Source: a virus. From it: 20,725 nucleotides of DNA. Every line of letters begins with the position of its first letter. Within the stretch, counting starts at the first letter, position 1. The notes below the pieces were generated by a model. It made no database searches, was not told where the DNA came from, and was given only the letters and a program-made list of their open reading frames with translations. The position numbers and the translations under genes were made by a program. Where the stretch lies: IMG/VR virus record IMGVR_UViG_3300028394_002462, positions 1 to 20,725 of that record. One strand, written 5' to 3'. This document shows, one piece after another, positions 918 to 9,396 of the stretch.

Positions 918-2159
918 TCAGGTCGCGGGATGGACCATCTCGTACCGACGGACCTTGACTCCGTCGATTTTGCGCTCAACGCGTCGGTGCGTGCCGATGC
1001 GGGCCATCATCATGCCGACCTTCGTGGCCATGGCGGACCACTGCGAGGCGGGCACCTCTTGCTCCTCGAGGAAGTCGGCGACCGTGAACGCGTGCTTTGC
1101 GCGGGCGTACTGGACGAGGCGCGGGAAGAGCGGGTCTTGCGTCTCGTATCCGCTGTTCTGCTCCTCGCGCTGCTGCTCGAGCTCGGGCTCAAGCCAGTGC
1201 TGTTCGCCCTGCCGCCATGCTTCCATGGCCTCGGCCCAGACCTGTTCGTACTCGGCCTTGACCAGCTCGGTGTCGACGGCGTCGACCGATACGACCCACC
1301 ATCGCCGGTTGCCGGTCGGGTCGTGAAGCGGCTCGTCGTCGTTCGTGGTGGCGAAGAAGGCGCAGGTGCGCGGCACCTCGATCGTGTGCTTGCCGTACCA
1401 GGGACGGTACTTGTCGGTGGCCGAGCTGATGTAGTTCTTGACCGTGTCCTGGTCTGCCTTGCGCTTGCCGGCCAGCTCGGCGAGCTCGTAGATCCAGACG
1501 CCTTGGAGCGCGACGTACTTCTCCTTGCTGTCCCAGTCGATCTTGGTGTTCGAGTACCACGCTGGGTCATGGGCCATGATCTGGCAGAGGGTGCTCTTGC
1601 CCTTCCCGTGCGCGCCGTGAAGTACGAGGACCGTGTCGAGCTTCGAGCCGGGTTCCATCACGCGCCGCACGGCGCCGATGCACGTCTTGCGCGCGTAGGC
1701 CCGATGAAGCGGCGTGTCGATCACCTGCGCCCATCGGGTGAGCCACGTGTCGAGGCGCGGGACGCCATCCCACTCCAGCGAGGTGAGCCAGTCGCGGACG
1801 GGATGGTATCGGTTCTCATAGGCGATGAGCTCGAGCACCTCGTTCGTGTCCACCTTCTTGAACTCGACCCGGTGACGGCTGGCGATCTTCAGTCGCATCT
1901 CCGTCACGTCATGGTCGGCGATGGACTTGCCGTTGACCATGATGTTCTGTTTGAGCTCGCTGTACTTGATGTCGCCTGCAAACATCGGGTCGCCTCGAAG
2001 GATGGTGTCGAGGTTGAGCAGGCTGGACTTCGGGCGACTGGGGATGATCTGCCCGCCTGCGATTTTCGGAGGGTTCATTTCGAGGTCGAGGTCGAAGGGC
2101 TCCTCCTCGTCTGGCGGCGCGAGGTTGAGCATGGCGCGCATTTCGTCTTTGGTGGGCAT
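918..2159 (-). CDS. VapE-family (D5-like) replicative helicase/ATPase
   Basis: The product (413 residues) matches the virulence-associated E family of phage and satellite replication ATPases, superfamily 3-like helicases that unwind DNA at the origin. Visible motifs are a Walker A loop GAHGKGKST (182-190), a Walker B-like VWIYELAEL (221-229), a sensor-1-like FFATTND (268-274) and the family's GNRRWW arginine motif (283-288). The preceding SLEWDGVPRLDTWL (127-140) is also typical. The N-terminal 110 residues are a less conserved linker. The C-terminal 60 residues look like a small winged-helix module, as expected for origin binding. The ATG at 2157-2159 is preceded by AGAGGA; an upstream extension to 2258 would overlap the primase gene and is rejected. 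The gene starts eight bases after the primase-polymerase stop, so the two are probably translated together. Confidence 0.93.
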   Translation of the reverse strand: MPTKDEMRAMLNLAPPDEEEPFDLDLEMNPPKIAGGQIIPSRPKSSLLNLDTILRGDPMFAGDIKYSELKQNIMVNGKSIADHDVTEMRLKIASRHRVEFKKVDTNEVLELIAYENRYHPVRDWLTSLEWDGVPRLDTWLTRWAQVIDTPLHRAYARKTCIGAVRRVMEPGSKLDTVLVLHGAHGKGKSTLCQIMAHDPAWYSNTKIDWDSKEKYVALQGVWIYELAELAGKRKADQDTVKNYISSATDKYRPWYGKHTIEVPRTCAFFATTNDDEPLHDPTGNRRWWVVSVDAVDTELVKAEYEQVWAEAMEAWRQGEQHWLEPELEQQREEQNSGYETQDPLFPRLVQYARAKHAFTVADFLEEQEVPASQWSAMATKVGMMMARIGTHRRVERKIDGVKVRRYEMVHPAT

Positions 2160-2167
2160 GGGATCCT

Positions 2168-3022
2168 CTAGGACAGAAGGGTGTGGAGCGGCGCGTGCCA
2201 CCCGCAGGAGTTGAGATGCGAGCACTTGGCGTGGCCGGGACCGGAGACGGTCCACCACACCGACTTATCGGCGCACTGCGGGCACTTGACATGCCGCACA
2301 TGCAGAGTGTGAATGTCGGCCCCGAGCTGCTGACCGAGCGTGGTTCGCGCACTCGGGTCGAGGCGCAGCACGCGGGCGAGCTCCCGGTCGGCGGCGTCAC
2401 GCGACCAGGGCGTGCGCCTCGGGATGGACACGGCCTTCGGCACCGGGGGCCTCGGCTTCTCCTTGACCATATCGAAGAGCCACGAGGGCGCGTCCACCGC
2501 TTCCCGCGTGAATCCCGGCTCGTGGATCCACGCGTAGACGTGACCGCTTCGGTGAATGGTTGGTGGGGCACAGACGTACCCGCCCTCGCCACGCACATCG
2601 ACACCGGGCGCCATGCGCTGAGCGTTTCGGATGGTCACCCCTTCGGGGTAGCGCCAATAGAGATGCGCGCCCCGCGCGGTCCGCACTCCGAGTGTATGCA
2701 CTAGTCCGTGCTGTTTCACTTGCTCGTCGTACCACTCTTGAGCAGCGTCCCCGTCGATGTCGAGGACCCACACGCCCGAGACGCTCCCGGTCACAATGCC
2801 CACCCCTGCGCGTGGGTTCATTGTCCACCATTCGCGTACCTGGGCTTCGTCGGTCGTCGCCTTCTCGTGCCAGCCGTATAGGCGCGGGTGCTTGCCCCGC
2901 TGCTTCTCCTCGCAGTCAATACCCTTCCGACACGCGCACGTCTGCGTGACGGGGTCGACCTCGTATAGCGGGTGTACGCGTAAGCCCGCAGCTGCGTACC
3001 GCAGCGCGTATCGGATGTTCAC
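2168..3022 (-). CDS. Primase-polymerase (prim-pol, bifunctional DNA primase/polymerase N-terminal family)
   Basis: The 284-residue product resembles the archaeo-eukaryotic-type primase-polymerase domain common in phages and plasmids, which makes primers and can extend them. The N-terminal insert has the family's cysteine pattern followed by GKHPRLYGW (43-51). Catalytic-type motifs are VLDIDG (87-91, Asp88 and Asp90), RTARGAH (114-120) and GVDVRGEGGYV (140-150). Residues 247-275 form a C-terminal zinc ribbon (Cys247, Cys250, Cys267, Cys273), a fold often used to bind template DNA. Many relatives fuse this domain to a helicase; here the helicase is the separate downstream gene. The start is a GTG at 3020-3022 with AGGA six bases upstream; an in-frame TAA just above rules out a much longer form. 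Confidence 0.92.
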   Translation of the reverse strand: MNIRYALRYAAAGLRVHPLYEVDPVTQTCACRKGIDCEEKQRGKHPRLYGWHEKATTDEAQVREWWTMNPRAGVGIVTGSVSGVWVLDIDGDAAQEWYDEQVKQHGLVHTLGVRTARGAHLYWRYPEGVTIRNAQRMAPGVDVRGEGGYVCAPPTIHRSGHVYAWIHEPGFTREAVDAPSWLFDMVKEKPRPPVPKAVSIPRRTPWSRDAADRELARVLRLDPSARTTLGQQLGADIHTLHVRHVKCPQCADKSVWWTVSGPGHAKCSHLNSCGWHAPLHTLLS

Positions 3023-3052
3023 GATGTCCTGCCGTATCGCTCGCCGGGAGGT

Positions 3053-3075
3053 GCGGGGGGCTTAGCGCCCCCCGC
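3053..3075. other. Strong GC hairpin in the primase leader
   Basis: GCGGGGGGC (3053-3061) and GCCCCCCGC (3067-3075) are perfect nine-base complements around a five-base loop. There is no U-tract on either side, so this is not a classical intrinsic terminator. It lies between a candidate promoter (3115-3144) and the primase GTG at 3022, so it would be in the 5' leader RNA and could attenuate transcription or mark an end for the upstream transcript. Confidence 0.65.
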
Positions 3076-3077
3076 GA

Positions 3078-3095
3078 GCGGGTGATCAAGCCCGC
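3078..3095. other. Second, weaker hairpin in the primase leader
   Basis: GCGGG (3078-3082) pairs with CCCGC (3091-3095) around an eight-base loop. It sits two bases from the stronger hairpin at 3053-3075, giving a tandem structured leader. Confidence 0.4.
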
Positions 3096-3114
3096 GTCCG
3101 GCGAGGACATCCGT

Positions 3115-3144
3115 ACATTAACGGCGTCCCCTCGCTGGCGTCAA
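3115..3144 (-). promoter_or_regulatory. Candidate promoter for the primase-helicase genes
   Basis: On the minus strand TTGACG (3139-3144) is followed after 18 bases by TAATGT (3115-3120). The -35 is a good sigma70 match; the -10 is only fair. It lies in the gap between the virion-like gene (stop at 3148) and the primase, where a new transcript would be expected. Confidence 0.4.
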
Positions 3145-3147
3145 CGA

Positions 3148-3735
3148 CTACCCGATGATCTCGACGGTCATGGCGTCCAGGCGCGCGACGTTGCCGGCGT
3201 TCGCCACCGACCACGTGCCGATGAGGTCGAGCAGCTGGTCGGCGGTCGTGTCGACCGTCACGCTGGCAGTGCCCACGACCTCGGCGCCAGCCACGTACCC
3301 GCCCGCCGCGGCGAACAGATGCTCGCTCGTCGCACGCACAGCACCGGAGGCCCCGGTGCTACGCACGAGGATGTCGGCGCGGAGGTGGAACACGTCGCTG
3401 GTGGCCGGGTCACGTGCGGCGATCGTGGTAATGGTCGTCGACCCGAGCTTCAGCACGACGCCGAAGGTGTCGGTGCTGTTCTGCCCGACGATGGTCCCGA
3501 GGGCCATGACCCGGATGTGCGTGCCCGCGGTCAGCGCGCCGGCCGGGATGCTGACGCTACCGAACGAGGTCGCGACGGTCGTGTTCTGCACCGTCGCGCT
3601 CTGCACGGCGTAGATCTGCCCGCCGACCTTCGCCGCGGGGTGCGTGCTCAGTGCGCGCTTGGTGGTGATGACGCCGGTCACGGCGGCGTCGTGGTCGAGG
3701 GAGCGGGACTGCATGAACTCAGGAAGCTTGCTCAT
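3148..3735 (-). CDS. Beta-rich virion-like protein (possible decoration or fibre protein)
   Basis: The 195-residue product is rich in Thr, Ser, Ala, Val and Gly with alternating beta-type stretches, such as ATVQNTTVATSFGSVSIPAG (47-66) followed by GTHIRVMALGTI. This 'unstable noun - two-strand - IPAG.L..G..IRV' style is typical of beta-sandwich phage structural proteins, usually decoration, head-fibre or tail-associated. There are no enzyme motifs. The ATG at 3733-3735 has a good AGGAG ribosome binding site; the longer frame to 3780 lacks one. The location is odd, since it lies inside the leftward regulatory and replication arm, far from the other structural genes. It may be a late-expressed insertion with its own promoter in the 58-base gap upstream. 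The structural role is inference from composition. Confidence 0.7.
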   Translation of the reverse strand: MSKLPEFMQSRSLDHDAAVTGVITTKRALSTHPAAKVGGQIYAVQSATVQNTTVATSFGSVSIPAGALTAGTHIRVMALGTIVGQNSTDTFGVVLKLGSTTITTIAARDPATSDVFHLRADILVRSTGASGAVRATSEHLFAAAGGYVAGAEVVGTASVTVDTTADQLLDLIGTWSVANAGNVARLDAMTVEIIG

Positions 3736-3793
3736 TTTGACTCCTACGGGGCGGGTGCGCGCTGAGGATAGCACGCTCACCCCTCGAGGTGTA

Positions 3794-4162
3794 CTACGCC
3801 GCCACCTCTCGCCGCCGCTTGGGCCGCGCGCCCCTCTGGCGCCCGACCATGTACGGCAGGTCCATCTTCTTCGCCCACTCTTTCACTGCACACTGAAGAG
3901 TCTTGCGGTCCATCGGGCTCCGCGTCTCCTCGGCGATCTCGTCCCAGGTGAACGCGCCCGTGTTCCAGAGCGCGAGGTGCTCGTGGTACTCGTCGCGCAT
4001 CCGGTACCGGGTGGGCGGGCACCCCCACGCGACGAGGATCTCGCGCATGGTCGAGGTCCGCATCCGTTCCCGGCGCGCCATCCACTCGAGGGACACGCCG
4101 TCCATGCGCTCCATGATCCAGAGCAGCACGAGGACGGGGTCATGGTTCGTAGGGGCGCTCAT
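3794..4162 (-). CDS. Possible DNA-binding protein with HTH-like segments
   Basis: The 122-residue product has two helical stretches that could each hold a helix-turn-helix: residues about 22-46 (GVSLEWMARRERMRTSTMRE) and about 70-97 (FTWDEIAEET followed by DRKTLQCAVKEWAKK). It ends in a basic tail, GRQRGARPKRRRE (107-119). This would fit a small phage transcription regulator or a terminase small subunit, but no family-specific motif settles it. The ATG at 4160-4162 overlaps the zinc-ribbon gene's stop as ATGA, so the longer frame to 4222 is rejected. It is the last gene of an unbroken chain of overlapping genes that begins at 6015. Confidence 0.65.
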   Translation of the reverse strand: MSAPTNHDPVLVLLWIMERMDGVSLEWMARRERMRTSTMREILVAWGCPPTRYRMRDEYHEHLALWNTGAFTWDEIAEETRSPMDRKTLQCAVKEWAKKMDLPYMVGRQRGARPKRRREVAA

Positions 4163-4386
4163 GGCTTGCCCTCTTGAACCATCGCCGTGACGTCTTCGGT
4201 GGCGAGCTCGACGGTAAACCATTCGTGCCGCTCAGGGCACACACGACGGCGCACGACCACGTCGGACGTGTACCAGGACGCTACCTCTCCAGCTGCGCGG
4301 ATGCGCCCGCAGTAAACGCCCGGGCTGTCGTTGGGCTGGCGAGTGTCCACGACGCGCGAGGCCTTGCCGCAGCGGGTGCAGGTCAT
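4159..4386 (-). CDS. NrdR-like zinc-ribbon protein
   Basis: The 75-residue product resembles the N-terminal zinc ribbon of the ribonucleotide reductase repressor NrdR. It begins MTCTRC (Cys3, Cys6), continues with VVDTR (12-16) and later RRRVCPERHEWFTVE (46-60), echoing NrdR's VIDSR, RRRREC and RFTTFE. The last metal ligand pair would be Cys50 and His54 instead of two cysteines, with Cys26 spare. The ATP-cone domain of NrdR is absent, so nucleotide sensing is not expected. It may bind DNA or simply share the fold. The ATG overlaps the upstream stop as ATGA, which fixes the start; a longer frame to 4521 is rejected. Confidence 0.75.
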   Translation of the reverse strand: MTCTRCGKASRVVDTRQPNDSPGVYCGRIRAAGEVASWYTSDVVVRRRVCPERHEWFTVELATEDVTAMVQEGKP

Positions 4387-4721
4387 GGCTCCTCCTCGCG
4401 GCGGTGCTCGCCGCGTTCGATACGGTCGGCGTTCAGGAGAAGCAGGCCGCGCCCCGCTGGTGAGAGCGACGGTACGCCACGCTCGATGGGATGTGGCGCG
4501 TTCGCGTGTGCGCGGAGCCACGCCACCACGGCGGCGCGCTCCAGAGCTTGGCCTTTGTCGCGTGCGAAGTCGTAGGCTCGCGCGATGTCCTCGTTGTCAG
4601 CTCTACGCATTGATCGAAGCTCGCGCAGCTCTGATATGAGCTCCTTCACTGCCGGTGACGTGTAGAGCCCATGCTTCTCGTTCTCGGCGATCCGCGCCTC
4701 GAGGTCGTCTAGGTCGATCAT
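4383..4721 (-). CDS. IERGEHRR-motif small protein, member 3 (112 residues)
   Basis: This is the third and longest of three tandem related genes. It carries ERAAVVAWLR at 61-70 and ends in IERGEHRREEEP (101-112). The N-terminal 60 residues are charged and helical, including LISELRELRSMRRADNEDIA. The segment between the two motifs (71-100) is longer than in its relatives. No catalytic or metal-binding motif is visible. It overlaps both neighbours by four bases (ATGA), implying coupled translation. The shared motifs suggest one ancestral gene was duplicated. Function is unknown; a protein-interaction role fits the composition but is a guess. Confidence 0.8.
   Translation of the reverse strand: MIDLDDLEARIAENEKHGLYTSPAVKELISELRELRSMRRADNEDIARAYDFARDKGQALERAAVVAWLRAHANAPHPIERGVPSLSPAGRGLLLLNADRIERGEHRREEEP
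4389..4421 (+). repeat. 33-bp direct repeat, copy A
   Basis: This 33-base stretch is identical to 4724-4756. Its last 21 bases also occur at 4999-5019. On the minus strand it encodes the IERGEHRREE end of the member 3 protein. Confidence 0.85.
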
Positions 4722-4984
4722 GACTCCTCCTCGCGGCGGTGCTCGCCGCGTTCGATCTTGTCAGCAAGAATGGTGCAGGCATCTTCGATGGAGATGGTGA
4801 TGCCGACCCCGTGGATGGCGCGCTCACGCAGGTGGGCCACCACGGCGGCGCGCTCCTCGTTGCGGGCTGCGTCCATCGCGTGCATGACATGCTCGCTGTC
4901 ATCACGAAGGCGGCAGCGAAGTTGCTCCAGTTCATCGAACGCGTTCGCGAGAATACGAAGCGTTTCGGCTCGTCCATTCGTCAT
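4718..4984 (-). CDS. IERGEHRR-motif small protein, member 2 (88 residues)
   Basis: The middle gene of the tandem trio. It shows ERAAVVAHLR at 44-53 and ends in IERGEHRREEES (77-88). The N-terminal half is a probable amphipathic helix (LRILANAFDELEQLRCRLRD). Only about 23 residues separate the two motifs, compared with 30 in member 3. ATGA overlaps join it to both neighbours. It shares a 33-base identical DNA segment with member 3 at the 3' end but differs strongly in the N-terminal half, so it is an old or recombined duplicate. No function can be assigned. Confidence 0.8.
   Translation of the reverse strand: MTNGRAETLRILANAFDELEQLRCRLRDDSEHVMHAMDAARNEERAAVVAHLRERAIHGVGITISIEDACTILADKIERGEHRREEES
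4724..4756 (+). repeat. 33-bp direct repeat, copy B
   Basis: Identical to 4389-4421, at the equivalent 3' end of the member 2 gene. Confidence 0.85.
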
Positions 4985-5142
4985 GCCTTCTCCTTCCTGC
5001 GGTGCTCGCCGCGTTCGATGATGTCTCGCAGTTGCCGAACGCGAAGCGTCCCCATCAACAGGTCGTGCGCCTCGGCGATCTCTAGTTCCCGGTCGAGCAG
5101 CGCGAGGACGGCGGCGCGCTCCTTCTGTTCTTCGTGCGTCAT
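4981..5142 (-). CDS. IERGEHRR-motif small protein, member 1 (53 residues)
   Basis: The smallest of the trio starts at an ATG (5140-5142) that overlaps the RusA stop as ATGA, and its own stop overlaps the next ATG in the same way. It has ERAAVLALLD at 8-17 and ends in IERGEHRRKEKA (42-53), the same two motifs in the same order as its neighbours. It looks like a minimal form: a short N-terminus, the first motif, about 24 variable residues and the tail. The overlaps on both sides and the motif conservation are the main reasons to call so short a gene. Function unknown. Confidence 0.75.
   Translation of the reverse strand: MTHEEQKERAAVLALLDRELEIAEAHDLLMGTLRVRQLRDIIERGEHRRKEKA
4999..5019 (+). repeat. 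Direct repeat, partial copy C (21 bp)
   Basis: Matches the last 21 bases of the 33-base repeat at 4389-4421 and 4724-4756, at the 3' end of the member 1 gene. Confidence 0.8.
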
Positions 5143-5606
5143 GGCGTCACCTCGCGCATGGTGACCTCGACCCGCGGCTGCTCATTCCCCCAGGCGAACC
5201 ACGAGGACGCTGCGATGCTCACGATGCACCGGTCATTCTGGACCACGCGGGCGATCTGCATCGCGTCGAGAGTGATCTTCACGACGTTGTCCAGGTCGTG
5301 CCGCGAGGTCGCCGGAAGGCGGTACTCGGGCAGTCCCCACAGCGCGCGGTCGATGTAGGAGGGGCGCGTCTTCGGGCGCGGATGGTAGGCGCGGATCTCG
5401 GCCTCCCACAGCGGAGCCGACTCGTTGCATGGGATGTAGTACCTGCCTCCGCAATGGCTAAGATGCTGCTCGCGCAACTGGTGCGCGCCCTCGTGCTCCC
5501 ACGCACGGGTAGTCTCCGGCGTGCGGGCGCTCCCGGTCGCGCGCGTGAACACGGGACGCCCCTTGCCTCGCGGCTCGAGCAGGATGGTGTAGCTGCGCTC
5601 GATCAT
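5139..5606 (-). CDS. rusA: RusA-family Holliday junction resolvase
   Basis: The 155-residue product fits RusA, a homodimeric endonuclease that cuts four-way junctions during phage recombination. It starts with a beta strand and the basic segment RGKGRPVFTR (13-22). The core motif DLDN (104-107) is followed by Lys110, LDAM (113-116) and Asp125. The spacing of Asp104, Asp106, Lys110 and Asp125 equals that of the essential Asp70, Asp72, Lys76 and Asp91 of E. coli RusA, so the enzyme is probably active. A 30-40 residue insertion between the basic segment and the core makes it longer than the 120-residue E. coli protein. ATGA overlaps link it to both neighbours. It probably acts with the ERF protein and exonuclease of the rightward operon. 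Confidence 0.88.
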   Translation of the reverse strand: MIERSYTILLEPRGKGRPVFTRATGSARTPETTRAWEHEGAHQLREQHLSHCGGRYYIPCNESAPLWEAEIRAYHPRPKTRPSYIDRALWGLPEYRLPATSRHDLDNVVKITLDAMQIARVVQNDRCIVSIAASSWFAWGNEQPRVEVTMREVTP

Positions 5607-5809
5607 GGCTTCACCTTGAGCACGTCAGGACCGAAGCGCACCACGCCATCGAGGCGTGCCTCTGCCACCGCCCAGCGGGTAGCGTAGTCGATCATCTTGC
5701 GTTCACACTCCGCGTGCCGGGCCTTCTCGTCCTCGAGGGCGCGCTCGGCCGTTTCCAGACGCGTGAGGAGGCTGTCGATGAGCGTGCGCAGCTGCATCGC
5801 TTCGTTCAT
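5603..5809 (-). CDS. Small coiled-coil protein
   Basis: The 68-residue product is mainly one long predicted coiled coil (about residues 5-50) with heptad-like leucines and many Glu, Arg and Lys residues, such as LIDSLLTRLETAERALEDEK. It ends in a short hydrophobic segment. No enzymatic motif is visible. The ATG overlaps the repressor's stop codon as ATGA, so it is the second gene of the leftward operon and would be made together with the HTH protein. It could be a partner or antirepressor, but nothing in the sequence proves that. Confidence 0.75.
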   Translation of the reverse strand: MNEAMQLRTLIDSLLTRLETAERALEDEKARHAECERKMIDYATRWAVAEARLDGVVRFGPDVLKVKP

Positions 5810-6015
5810 TCCACACCTCCGTCCTTCATGTAGAGCTCGGCGATGTCCGAGGCCGTGAGGCCCAGAGCCTTGTAGAGCTCCATGATCACGCGAGCGGCCG
5901 GCCGGCGACGACCGTTCTCGTACGCCTTGATGGCGCTGATTCCGACACCGACGAGGTCGGCGAGCTGCGCCTGAGTGAGCCCGGCGGCTTTACGTCTGTC
6001 TGAGAGCGATCCCAT
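5806..6015 (-). CDS. Cro/CI-type HTH repressor
   Basis: The 69-residue product is a single XRE/Cro-type helix-turn-helix domain. The motif runs from about residue 13 to 37 (LTQAQLADLVGVGISAIKAY, then ENGRRRP), the classic helix 2-turn-helix 3 pattern. There is no C-terminal LexA-like cleavage domain, so it is a Cro-like or minimal repressor, not a full-length CI. The ATG at 6013-6015 is preceded by GGAG; a longer frame to 6099 would run through the promoters and is rejected. It is the first gene leftward from the divergent control region and very likely binds the half-sites there, repressing both its own promoter and the rightward operon. Confidence 0.88.
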   Translation of the reverse strand: MGSLSDRRKAAGLTQAQLADLVGVGISAIKAYENGRRRPAARVIMELYKALGLTASDIAELYMKDGGVE

Positions 6016-6029
6016 TTTTCTTTCTCCAC

Positions 6030-6050
6030 GGGTTGACGTTCCGTGAACCC
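6030..6050. promoter_or_regulatory. Candidate operator O1
   Basis: The 21-base element has arms GGGTTGACG (6030-6038) and CGTGAACCC (6042-6050) around TTC. The arms are complementary at eight of nine positions. It covers the -35 box of the rightward promoter and the expected leftward start site. Size and symmetry fit a dimeric HTH protein. Confidence 0.7.
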
Positions 6051-6061
6051 ATTCATAGTAT
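6033..6061 (+). promoter_or_regulatory. Rightward early promoter
   Basis: TTGACG (6033-6038) and TAGTAT (6056-6061) are separated by exactly 17 bases, a good sigma70-type match. Transcription would start near 6068 and give a 33-base leader to the ERF gene. Confidence 0.75.
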
Positions 6062-6080
6062 GTGGGTGTCGGGTCGTCAA
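6052..6080 (-). promoter_or_regulatory. Leftward early promoter
   Basis: On the minus strand TTGACG (6075-6080) and TATGAA (6052-6057) are separated by 17 bases. The -10 overlaps the rightward promoter's -10 by two bases, so both cannot be occupied at once. Transcription would start near 6045, about 30 bases before the repressor ATG. Confidence 0.75.
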
Positions 6081-6083
6081 CCC
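6063..6083. promoter_or_regulatory. Candidate operator O2 (one strong half-site)
   Basis: CGTCAACCC (6075-6083) is the exact complement of the O1 left arm GGGTTGACG. The partner position 6063-6071 (TGGGTGTCG) matches only partly. It covers the leftward -35 box. Its centre is 33 bases from that of O1, about three helical turns, so two dimers could sit on the same face of the DNA. Confidence 0.5.
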
Positions 6084-6100
6084 CCCGACGAAGGAACACG

Positions 6101-6877
6101 ATGAACTACGCAAGTCAGGATATCGGCGAGCTGGCGAAGGCCCTCGCCGCCGCGCAGGGCGAGATGAACGCCGCCAGCAAGGACGCCACGAACCCGCACT
6201 TCAAGACGCGCTACGCGGACCTTGCATCCATCATGGACGCGTGCCGCGGCCCACTCACGAAGCACGGCCTCGCGGTCACCCAGCTGCCCGGCCGTGACGA
6301 GGCCGGACAGGTCACGCTCACCACGACGCTCATGCACGCCAGCGGACAGTGGATCAGCTCGACCATCGGCGTGCGTCCCGCCCAGGAGAATCCGCAGGTT
6401 GTGGGATCCATCCTCACCTACCTGCGCCGCTACACGCTCGCCTCGGTCGTGGGCGTGGTCAGCGATGACGACGATGGAGAGGTCGCGAGCCAGCCCGTGC
6501 GTACCGCCAGCATGGCGCCTCGTCCGCAGACGGCGCGTGCGGAGTACACCCGCGAGGATCCGGTCGTTCCCCCGCCTGACGTGAAGGCGCGCCTCGATGC
6601 GACTGCACAGCGTGTGGCTGACCGCGTGACGCCCAGCGCCACCGTCGAGTCCTACACCCGCTCCACGCTCTGCCCCGAATGTGGCGGCGCGATGTGGGAC
6701 AATCGTGAGAAGAAGACGAACCCCAAGGCGCCCGACTTCAAGTGTAAGGACAAGTCGTGCACGGGTGTGATCTGGCGCTACAAGGCCCCACCTGCGCATC
6801 AGCCCATCCCGGGAGGACCGCTCGACGCCGAGCTTCGAGGCGCTCCCCCGCCGTCTGACGACGACATCCCGTTCTAG
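6101..6877 (+). CDS. erf: ERF-family single-strand annealing protein with zinc ribbon and SSB-like tail
   Basis: The 258-residue product belongs to the ERF family of phage recombinases, which anneal complementary single strands. Family features are an N-terminal helix with LAKALAAAQGEMNAASKDAT (11-30), then NPHFKTRYADLASIMDACR (31-49), LTKHGLAVTQ, and the GSILTYLRRYTLASVVGV segment (102-119) followed by acidic residues. After a linker comes a zinc ribbon (Cys191, Cys194, Cys215, Cys220). The protein ends PPSDDDIPF (250-258), matching the DDDIPF tip that E. coli SSB uses to bind partner proteins. The ATG at 6101 has an AAGGA ribosome binding site; an upstream extension to 6062 would run into the promoters. 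It is the first gene of the rightward operon. Confidence 0.9.
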   Translation: MNYASQDIGELAKALAAAQGEMNAASKDATNPHFKTRYADLASIMDACRGPLTKHGLAVTQLPGRDEAGQVTLTTTLMHASGQWISSTIGVRPAQENPQVVGSILTYLRRYTLASVVGVVSDDDDGEVASQPVRTASMAPRPQTARAEYTREDPVVPPPDVKARLDATAQRVADRVTPSATVESYTRSTLCPECGGAMWDNREKKTNPKAPDFKCKDKSCTGVIWRYKAPPAHQPIPGGPLDAELRGAPPPSDDDIPF

Positions 6878-8054: not shown

Positions 8055-8251
8055 AGCCACCCGGCCATACCTGCCCGGCTATCGACCGGGCACAGTCCGC
8101 TCTCCGTCGTCTCGCGTGGCGCTGCGCGAACCCAGATCATCAGGGCATCACGCCTGGCGAGGTGCTGGTTGAGGGCCTCGCGGCGCTGGAACAGGTACGC
8201 GAGGAGAACAGGCAGATGCGCGCGGCGTACCACGCGAAGGTCAACCCATGA
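8051..8251 (+). CDS. Small TCPxID-motif protein, 66 residues
   Basis: The GTG at 8051 overlaps the upstream stop (GTGA) and its TGA overlaps the methyltransferase ATG (ATGA), so both ends are fixed by context. The product begins KPPGHTCPAIDRAQSALRRL and ends in a helix LEQVREENRQMRAAYHAK. Small phage proteins with a TCP-x-ID start and a coiled C-terminal helix ('LE.lReaN..LR') are common, but their role is not established. There are two cysteines and no membrane segment. Confidence 0.7.
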   Translation: MKPPGHTCPAIDRAQSALRRLAWRCANPDHQGITPGEVLVEGLAALEQVREENRQMRAAYHAKVNP

Positions 8252-9396
8252 GGGCGCGCATCCTCGTCGGCGACTGCCGCGAGAGCATGGCCACGCTCGA
8301 GGCCGAGAGTGTGGACGCGGTCGTGTGCGACCCGCCGTACGAGCTCGGCTTCATGGGCCGGAAGTGGGACTTGAGCGGTATCGCCTATGACCTTGAGGTG
8401 TGGCGTCAGGCTCTGCGCGTGCTGAAGCCCGGCGGGCACCTGCTCGCCTTCTCAGGGTCGCGAACCTATCACCGCATGGCGTGCGCCATCGAGGATGCGG
8501 GGTTCGACGTGCGCGACCAGATCATGTGGCTCTACGGGAGCGGGTTCCCGAAGTCGCACGACGTGTCGAAGGCCATCGACAAGGCGGCGGGTGCGGAGCG
8601 GGAGGTCGTGGGGAAGCACCCCCAACCGGGGAGCACCAACGGAAGGCTCGCCATGGGAGACGGCTGGCAAGTCGCACCCGACATCACCGCTCCCGCCACC
8701 GACGACGCCCGCCGCTGGTCCGGATGGGGCACGGCCCTAAAGCCAGCGCACGAGCCGATCTGCATGGCGCGGAAGCCGCTGGTCGGGACCGTCGCGGCGA
8801 ACGTGCTGCGGTACGGTACGGGTGCGATCAATGTGGATGGGTGTCGCGTAGGAACAGACAGCACACGTCGCGACACGGGTTCTGCGGCTATGTGGAACAA
8901 TGCAGGGCGTGTCGTCGGAGGTAGTGACTGTGGACGCTGGCCCGCCAACGTCCTCCACGACGGCAGCGACGAGGCAACCGAGGGGCTACGCGACGCGGCG
9001 CGGTACTTCTACACTGCGAAGGCCGACAGGTCCGACCGTGAGGAGGTGATCGGTGACGTACCAAGGCGCAGGCCTCCTGCCGTCGAGTGTCAGGGCGATT
9101 TTGGCAAGAGTGGCCTAAACAGTCCACGGGCAGGCGCTGGTAGGACAGCGCGCGATCTAGTGAACATCCACCCTACCGTGAAGCCCACCGACCTCATGCG
9201 CTACCTCGTGCGTATGGTCACGCCACCCGGTGGCCTCGTGCTGGACCCATTCACCGGGTCCGGTTCCACCGGCCGCGCCGCCATGCTTGACGGGATGCGC
9301 TTCGTCGGGTGCGAGCTCTCGCCCGAATACGCCGAGATTGCGCGGGCGCGCATCCGGTTTACGCTCGGGCCGCTCTTCGCGCATCTGGTCGAATGA
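8248..9396 (+). CDS. Beta-class DNA methyltransferase, probably N6-adenine
   Basis: The 382-residue product has the catalytic motif IV DPPY (28-31) near the N-terminus and motif I DPFTGSGST (333-341), the S-adenosylmethionine site, near the C-terminus. This order is the beta class of N4/N6 amino-methyltransferases. DPPY favours adenine as substrate. Other typical segments are GSGFPKSHDVSKAID (97-111), INVDGCRV (194-201), GRWPANVLHDGSD (229-241) and HPTVKP (308-313). The target recognition region lies between, so the specificity cannot be read. No partner restriction enzyme is in the window, so it is probably an orphan phage enzyme protecting DNA from host restriction or affecting its regulation. 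It is joined to its neighbours by ATGA overlaps on both sides. Confidence 0.93.
   Translation: MRARILVGDCRESMATLEAESVDAVVCDPPYELGFMGRKWDLSGIAYDLEVWRQALRVLKPGGHLLAFSGSRTYHRMACAIEDAGFDVRDQIMWLYGSGFPKSHDVSKAIDKAAGAEREVVGKHPQPGSTNGRLAMGDGWQVAPDITAPATDDARRWSGWGTALKPAHEPICMARKPLVGTVAANVLRYGTGAINVDGCRVGTDSTRRDTGSAAMWNNAGRVVGGSDCGRWPANVLHDGSDEATEGLRDAARYFYTAKADRSDREEVIGDVPRRRPPAVECQGDFGKSGLNSPRAGAGRTARDLVNIHPTVKPTDLMRYLVRMVTPPGGLVLDPFTGSGSTGRAAMLDGMRFVGCELSPEYAEIARARIRFTLGPLFAHLVE

Follow-up and report, generated by a model that had tools for sequence, protein, structure and literature searches.

A putative mirror-symmetric bidirectional early promoter with a single predicted repressor in a phage family

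How might a small phage control two early operons that point away from each other across a gap of 85 bp? This question is raised by positions 6016–6100 of a 20,725-nucleotide stretch of viral DNA (IMG/VR record IMGVR_UViG_3300028394_002462, the window hereafter), which matched a portion of the 29.9-kb contig G001, itself starting with a terminase gene, at 99.97–100% identity. An earlier sequence-only reading of this gap had described interlocked divergent promoters with operator half-sites, possibly under the control of a single Cro-like protein, and all of the sequences and coordinates it gave were correct when checked in the window.

The gap is bordered on its left by the first gene of a leftward (replication) operon, encoding a 69-aa XRE/Cro-like helix-turn-helix (HTH) protein (5806–6015, minus strand) with an ATG start and GGAGA upstream on the same strand. 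The protein matched Pfam HTH_3 (PF01381; E = 1.1e-13, 51.4 bits against a cut-off of 23), and by sequence it falls in the fold family of 434 Cro/CI, P22 c2 and C.AhdI (PDB 1r63, 2r1j and 1y7y). The rest of the leftward operon (918–5606, minus strand) encodes a RusA resolvase, a prim-pol, a VapE-like helicase and small unknown ORFs. On the opposite side, the rightward operon begins with an ERF-family single-strand annealing protein (6101–6877, plus strand; Pfam ERF, E = 5.9e-27; PHROG Erf-like) and also contains an exonuclease-like protein and an N6/N4 DNA methylase (8248–9396, plus strand) with no recognised endonuclease.

The 5806–6015 protein was the only HTH_3 protein in the window, and one HTH_3 protein per contig exceeded the Pfam cut-off in the family and its sister clade (13/13) and in a third group (6/6); the contigs searched for HTH_3 proteins and integrases are not all known to be complete, and regulators outside HTH_3 are possible. 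Two further ORFs of the leftward operon could bind DNA and may represent such regulators. A basic ORF of 142 aa (3794–4222, minus strand) shows two HTH-like stretches by eye, has no PHROG or Pfam match, and is a possible second DNA-binding protein, while the ORF at 4159–4521 (minus strand) gave an NrdR-like zinc ribbon match (E = 8e-5) below the curated cut-off.

Sigma-70-type scoring of both strands of the window placed the two proposed promoters first (rightward) and second (leftward) among 206,940 sites, in agreement with the earlier description of an interlocked divergent pair; the weights were approximate E. coli sigma-70 values and may not suit the sigma factor of the phage host. The rightward promoter (TTGACG-17-TAGTAT; 6033–6061, plus strand) has its -35 element at 6033–6038, its -10 element at 6056–6061 and a predicted +1 at approximately 6068. 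Its leftward counterpart (TTGACG-17-TATGAA; 6052–6080, minus strand) has its -35 element at 6080–6075, its -10 element at 6057–6052 and a predicted +1 at approximately 6045, hence the predicted start sites lie 23 bp apart. A fixed consensus promoter scan of the window returned the rightward promoter as its sole match, and missed the leftward promoter because the latter has no T at the sixth position of its -10 element. Support for the putative leftward promoter is weaker, given this departure from the usual -7T. Among ten distinct inter-operator spacers from related phages, the -7T was absent from the leftward -10 element in nine and from the rightward -10 element in six, so promoter strength is uncertain in several relatives.

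The two -10 elements lie on opposite strands and overlap on a shared symmetric core, as in published bidirectional promoters. Its T-A step (6056–6057) forms positions -12/-11 of both -10 elements and is the exact dyad centre. The near-symmetry previously described for the region was upheld, with its centre moved from 6056 to 6056.5. Across ten distinct spacers, each 12 bp long, no columns other than T6056 and A6057 were invariant, and an invariant adjacent pair arose in 0/200,000 within-spacer shuffles, a figure that is not a probability as the sequences are related. It follows from the geometry of the interlocked, predicted promoters that two polymerases are excluded from binding at once. The 54-bp dyad as a whole pairs at 17/27 positions, a level reached by 10/2000 shuffles of the 85-bp region, and taken alone it is only moderately unusual. 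Whole-region symmetry was rejected as sole proof of the arrangement, as 17/27 pairs were equalled or beaten elsewhere in the window.

Two 21-bp putative operators flank this core. O1 (6030–6050) reads GGGTTGACG-TTC-CGTGAACCC, with half-sites GGGTTGACG at 6030–6038 and CGTGAACCC at 6042–6050, and O2 (6063–6083) reads TGGGTGTCG-GGT-CGTCAACCC, with half-sites at 6063–6071 and 6075–6083, the last being the complement of GGGTTGACG. The sequence-only reading had placed half-sites on both -35 hexamers (6030–6038 and 6075–6083) and had completed O1 with a third half-site at 6042–6050, all of which we confirmed; the half-site at 6075–6083, left there as a lone one, pairs with 6063–6071 to form O2. Reflected about 6056.5, O1 falls exactly on the position of O2, and the centres of the two are 33 bp apart, approximately three helical turns. 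Relative to the predicted starts, O1 occupies positions -38 to -18 at the rightward promoter, which include its -35 element, and positions -5 to +16 at the leftward one; in O2 these roles are exchanged, with the leftward -35 element covered together with -5 to +16 of the rightward promoter. The outer half-sites thus double as -35 hexamers, and the inner half-sites lie over the predicted start of the opposite promoter. O1 is the better palindrome, with 8/9 arm pairs against 6/9 in O2, and the left half-site of O2 is degenerate in the window relative to the consensus. The palindrome GGGTTSACG-N1-5-CGTSAACCC occurred once in the window and was absent from 100/100 shuffles, and a relaxed operator pattern, GGKTSWC-N5-GWSAMCC, gave one match in total over 200 dinucleotide shuffles of the window.

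In 11 related phage contigs of 20.7–30.3 kb, the relaxed pattern was present exactly twice per contig, both times in this gap and with starts 33 bp apart (11/11), and a reversed control pattern had no match in the same 11 contigs. The pattern was derived from these sequences, and the informative part is that it was found nowhere else in them. A search of 2.9 million viral contigs for the paired pattern with a 14-bp gap returned 23 matching stretches, 20 of which belonged to this family. The predicted operator sequence, GGGTTGACG-N3-CGTSAACCC, is confined to this group of phages. The other three matches (L216, L225 and L230) were rejected as unrelated GGGTGTC repeat arrays in replication-type genes; these arrays of GGGTGTC...GACACCCC palindromes (L216:788–839, L225:5152–5293 and L230:8296–8347) lie in or beside such genes and are possibly iteron-like.

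Eight representatives of the main group kept TTGAC in every outer half-site, with variation at three positions of the O1 inner half-site, as expected if the outer half-sites serve as both operator and -35 element. Furthermore, the length of the inter-operator spacer is constant, whereas the leader just downstream of O2 contains insertions and deletions. This conservation among aligned relatives is conclusive evidence that the predicted control region is real. In five contigs (L005, L006, L007, L008 and L010), a small additional gene separates ERF from the rightward promoter and leaves the control region as it is. Upstream of the HTH gene, L010 also has the O1 variant GGTTGCAG instead of GGTTGACG, which alters the -35 element and outer half-site and may be a natural variant or an assembly error. 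A hairpin, GUCGGG...CCCGAC (6068–6089, plus strand), is predicted at the 5' end of the rightward mRNA, directly before the ribosome-binding site. It was predicted in 7/7 folded variants with energies no better than those of shuffles; its 3' arm lies outside O2 and is shifted by indels among relatives, with pairing retained.

Does the neighbouring XRE protein read these dyads? An out-of-sample, more distant group (L260–L267) was retrieved with an alignment of the ERF protein and not with the operator pattern. The arrangement was located directly in six of its seven contigs, and the seventh (L266) shows it too, with the 33-bp spacing and central TA kept. At position 7, C replaces A in three of the four half-sites, namely the two outer ones and the inner one of O1, and the XRE protein, 42% identical to that of the window, has RYSVSKWERGHRRP in place of ISAIKAYENGRRRP in its recognition helix. 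The position-7 change moves the -35 element away from consensus, hence promoter function alone is insufficient as an explanation and the change appears better explained by an altered protein code. In the sister clade (L057–L066), which is more distant, the divergent gene encodes an XRE protein still less like that of the window, with 31% identity over 52 residues, and a different dyad, TTGCG-N5-CGCAA, adjoins the XRE gene once per contig (8/8), as does the palindrome GCACTATAGTGC, also found once per contig; it appears that this clade has another solution for the locus. Upstream of ERF in this clade, the rightward start looks leaderless (TAGTTATGGGGCATG).

Operators and recognition helix therefore change together in L260–L267 and differ together in L057–L066, which is support, not proof, for predicted binding of the dyads by the adjacent XRE protein. 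As the sequence-only reading had supposed, the 5806–6015 protein is likely to be the common regulator of both promoters, with one HTH_3 protein per contig and operator changes that track protein changes.

In our view the locus is probably a bidirectional early promoter of mirror symmetry under one repressor. A pair of sigma-70-type promoters would share 6056–6057 as the start of both -10 elements, with polymerase bound in one orientation at a time. The 69-aa Cro-like protein would be made from the leftward transcript and would bind O1 and O2 as dimers. Since each operator overlies one promoter's -35 element and the predicted start of its opposite, one bound dimer, on O1 or O2 alone, should block both directions. 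As the protein accumulates after infection, the replication (leftward) and recombination (rightward) arms would come under simultaneous negative autoregulation. What we infer from the DNA and protein sequences is that the promoters are active, that the protein dimerises and binds, that it represses both directions, and when it does so. The earlier proposal that a single polymerase can bind is borne out by the geometry, though at bidirectional promoters of E. coli polymerase competition was found to be of consequence only under strong activation of one direction (PMC12825309). Its description of the region as a switch is less well supported, as from the geometry both directions are expected to be repressed together rather than chosen between, and to work in one direction at a time a switch would require some additional feature that the region does not show. 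For the broader proposal of an autorepressed bidirectional promoter, in which either operator shuts both orientations, as a family-wide means by which apparently non-integrating phages balance their replication and recombination arms, we regard the chances as about even.

A lambda-like two-way decision would have one operator filled first, with one direction repressed and the other left alone or stimulated, and would involve an unrecognised second regulator or lysogeny module. The position of an XRE protein divergent from a recombination gene does resemble immunity regions, and with 8/9 arm pairs in O1 and 6/9 in O2 their affinities may differ; however, a single occupied operator should block both promoters, through the -35 element of one and the start of the other. 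Furthermore, the relatives searched yielded one HTH_3 protein per contig and no integrases: no tyrosine integrase (Phage_integrase) was found in 12 relatives and five contigs of the third group, and no resolvase-family integrase among 13 contigs. Among 84,980 species genomes of bacteria and archaea, none contained the exact control region. ERF was tried as a route to a prophage copy or host and was rejected, its eight relatives in species genomes being only 36–54% identical and scattered over phyla, and isolated phages gave only distant matches (ERF, HTH and helicase). A lambda-like decision is thus unlikely in our estimation, and the lack of an integrase together with one HTH_3 protein per genome suggests that the control region is probably not a lysis-lysogeny switch.

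The XRE protein could alternatively act as a restriction-modification controller (C) protein, with one operator used for activation and the second for repression. C.AhdI is indeed among its PDB sequence matches (1y7y, E = 7e-5) and the rightward operon carries the N6/N4 methylase (8248–9396), but this gene is not adjacent to the control region, the scanned proteins included no recognised restriction endonuclease to make up a linked endonuclease and methylase pair, and the overlap of both operators with -35 elements and start sites favours repression, as judged from the geometry, all of which makes a C protein very unlikely. We give similarly little credence to the dyads being protein sites only, with the true promoters elsewhere or only one direction active and with the T-A step and 33-bp spacing reflecting dimer-dimer contact. 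Cooperative dimers would need a fixed spacing such as 33 bp, close to three helical turns, the -7T is often absent, and the -10 and -35 consensus is based on E. coli; against this, the dyad is where the two top-scoring promoters of the window lie, and the invariant T-A step falls outside both operators.

The autorepressed bidirectional promoter that we favour bears on a class whose control has been described as largely unstudied (PMC12825309). No phage with a regulated bidirectional promoter was found in the literature searched, which is not evidence of absence. The locus offers a compact natural case whose operator, spacer and regulator show parallel changes among aligned relatives, and in which polymerase orientation, operator occupancy and the recognition code are addressable on a fragment of <100 bp. 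The arrangement also hints at how one protein could suffice to restrain early expression in the two directions in a small phage that lacks a recognisable lysogeny module.

The lambdoid OR region, with its CI-Cro switch, has divergent promoters with operators over them and a small Cro-like HTH protein. The phage region is alike in its divergent promoters under operators and its Cro-like protein, but differs in having interlocked promoters that share a -10 element. As the sequence-only reading had noted in setting it apart from the two-repressor lambda switch, two divergently encoded CI- and Cro-like repressors were not found, each contig having one HTH_3 protein (13/13); exactly two operators per contig were present rather than the three of the lambda type, and no integration module was found, with no Phage_integrase or Resolvase match in the contigs searched.

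The pLS20 conjugation switch Pc/Pr also has overlapping divergent promoters, two operators and one autoregulated HTH regulator, RcoLS20 (PMC4207663), features shared with the phage region, where autoregulation is predicted. RcoLS20 represses Pc and activates Pr through numerous short motifs, with the DNA looped to an operator further away (PMC4207663), whereas the phage region has only two compact dyads in a mirror layout. Prokaryotic bidirectional promoters (Warman et al.) have a near-symmetric -10 element common to opposite strands (PMC12825309, PMC10268837), usually between divergent genes, with starts 7–25 bp apart and 23 bp among the common distances (PMC10268837, PMC12825309), and PacrA/acrR is one such promoter, at which AcrR represses both genes (PMC12825309, PMC10268837). 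The phage region resembles these in its shared -10 element and 23-bp start distance, predicted here and not mapped, and with its predicted starts it fits the published class. It departs from them in that its -35 elements, operators and -10 element are all mirror-placed, each operator touches both promoters, and the region is an early control region conserved in a phage family. This complete mirror placement of -35 elements, operators and shared -10 element, as predicted here and conserved across the family, is different from the known cases.
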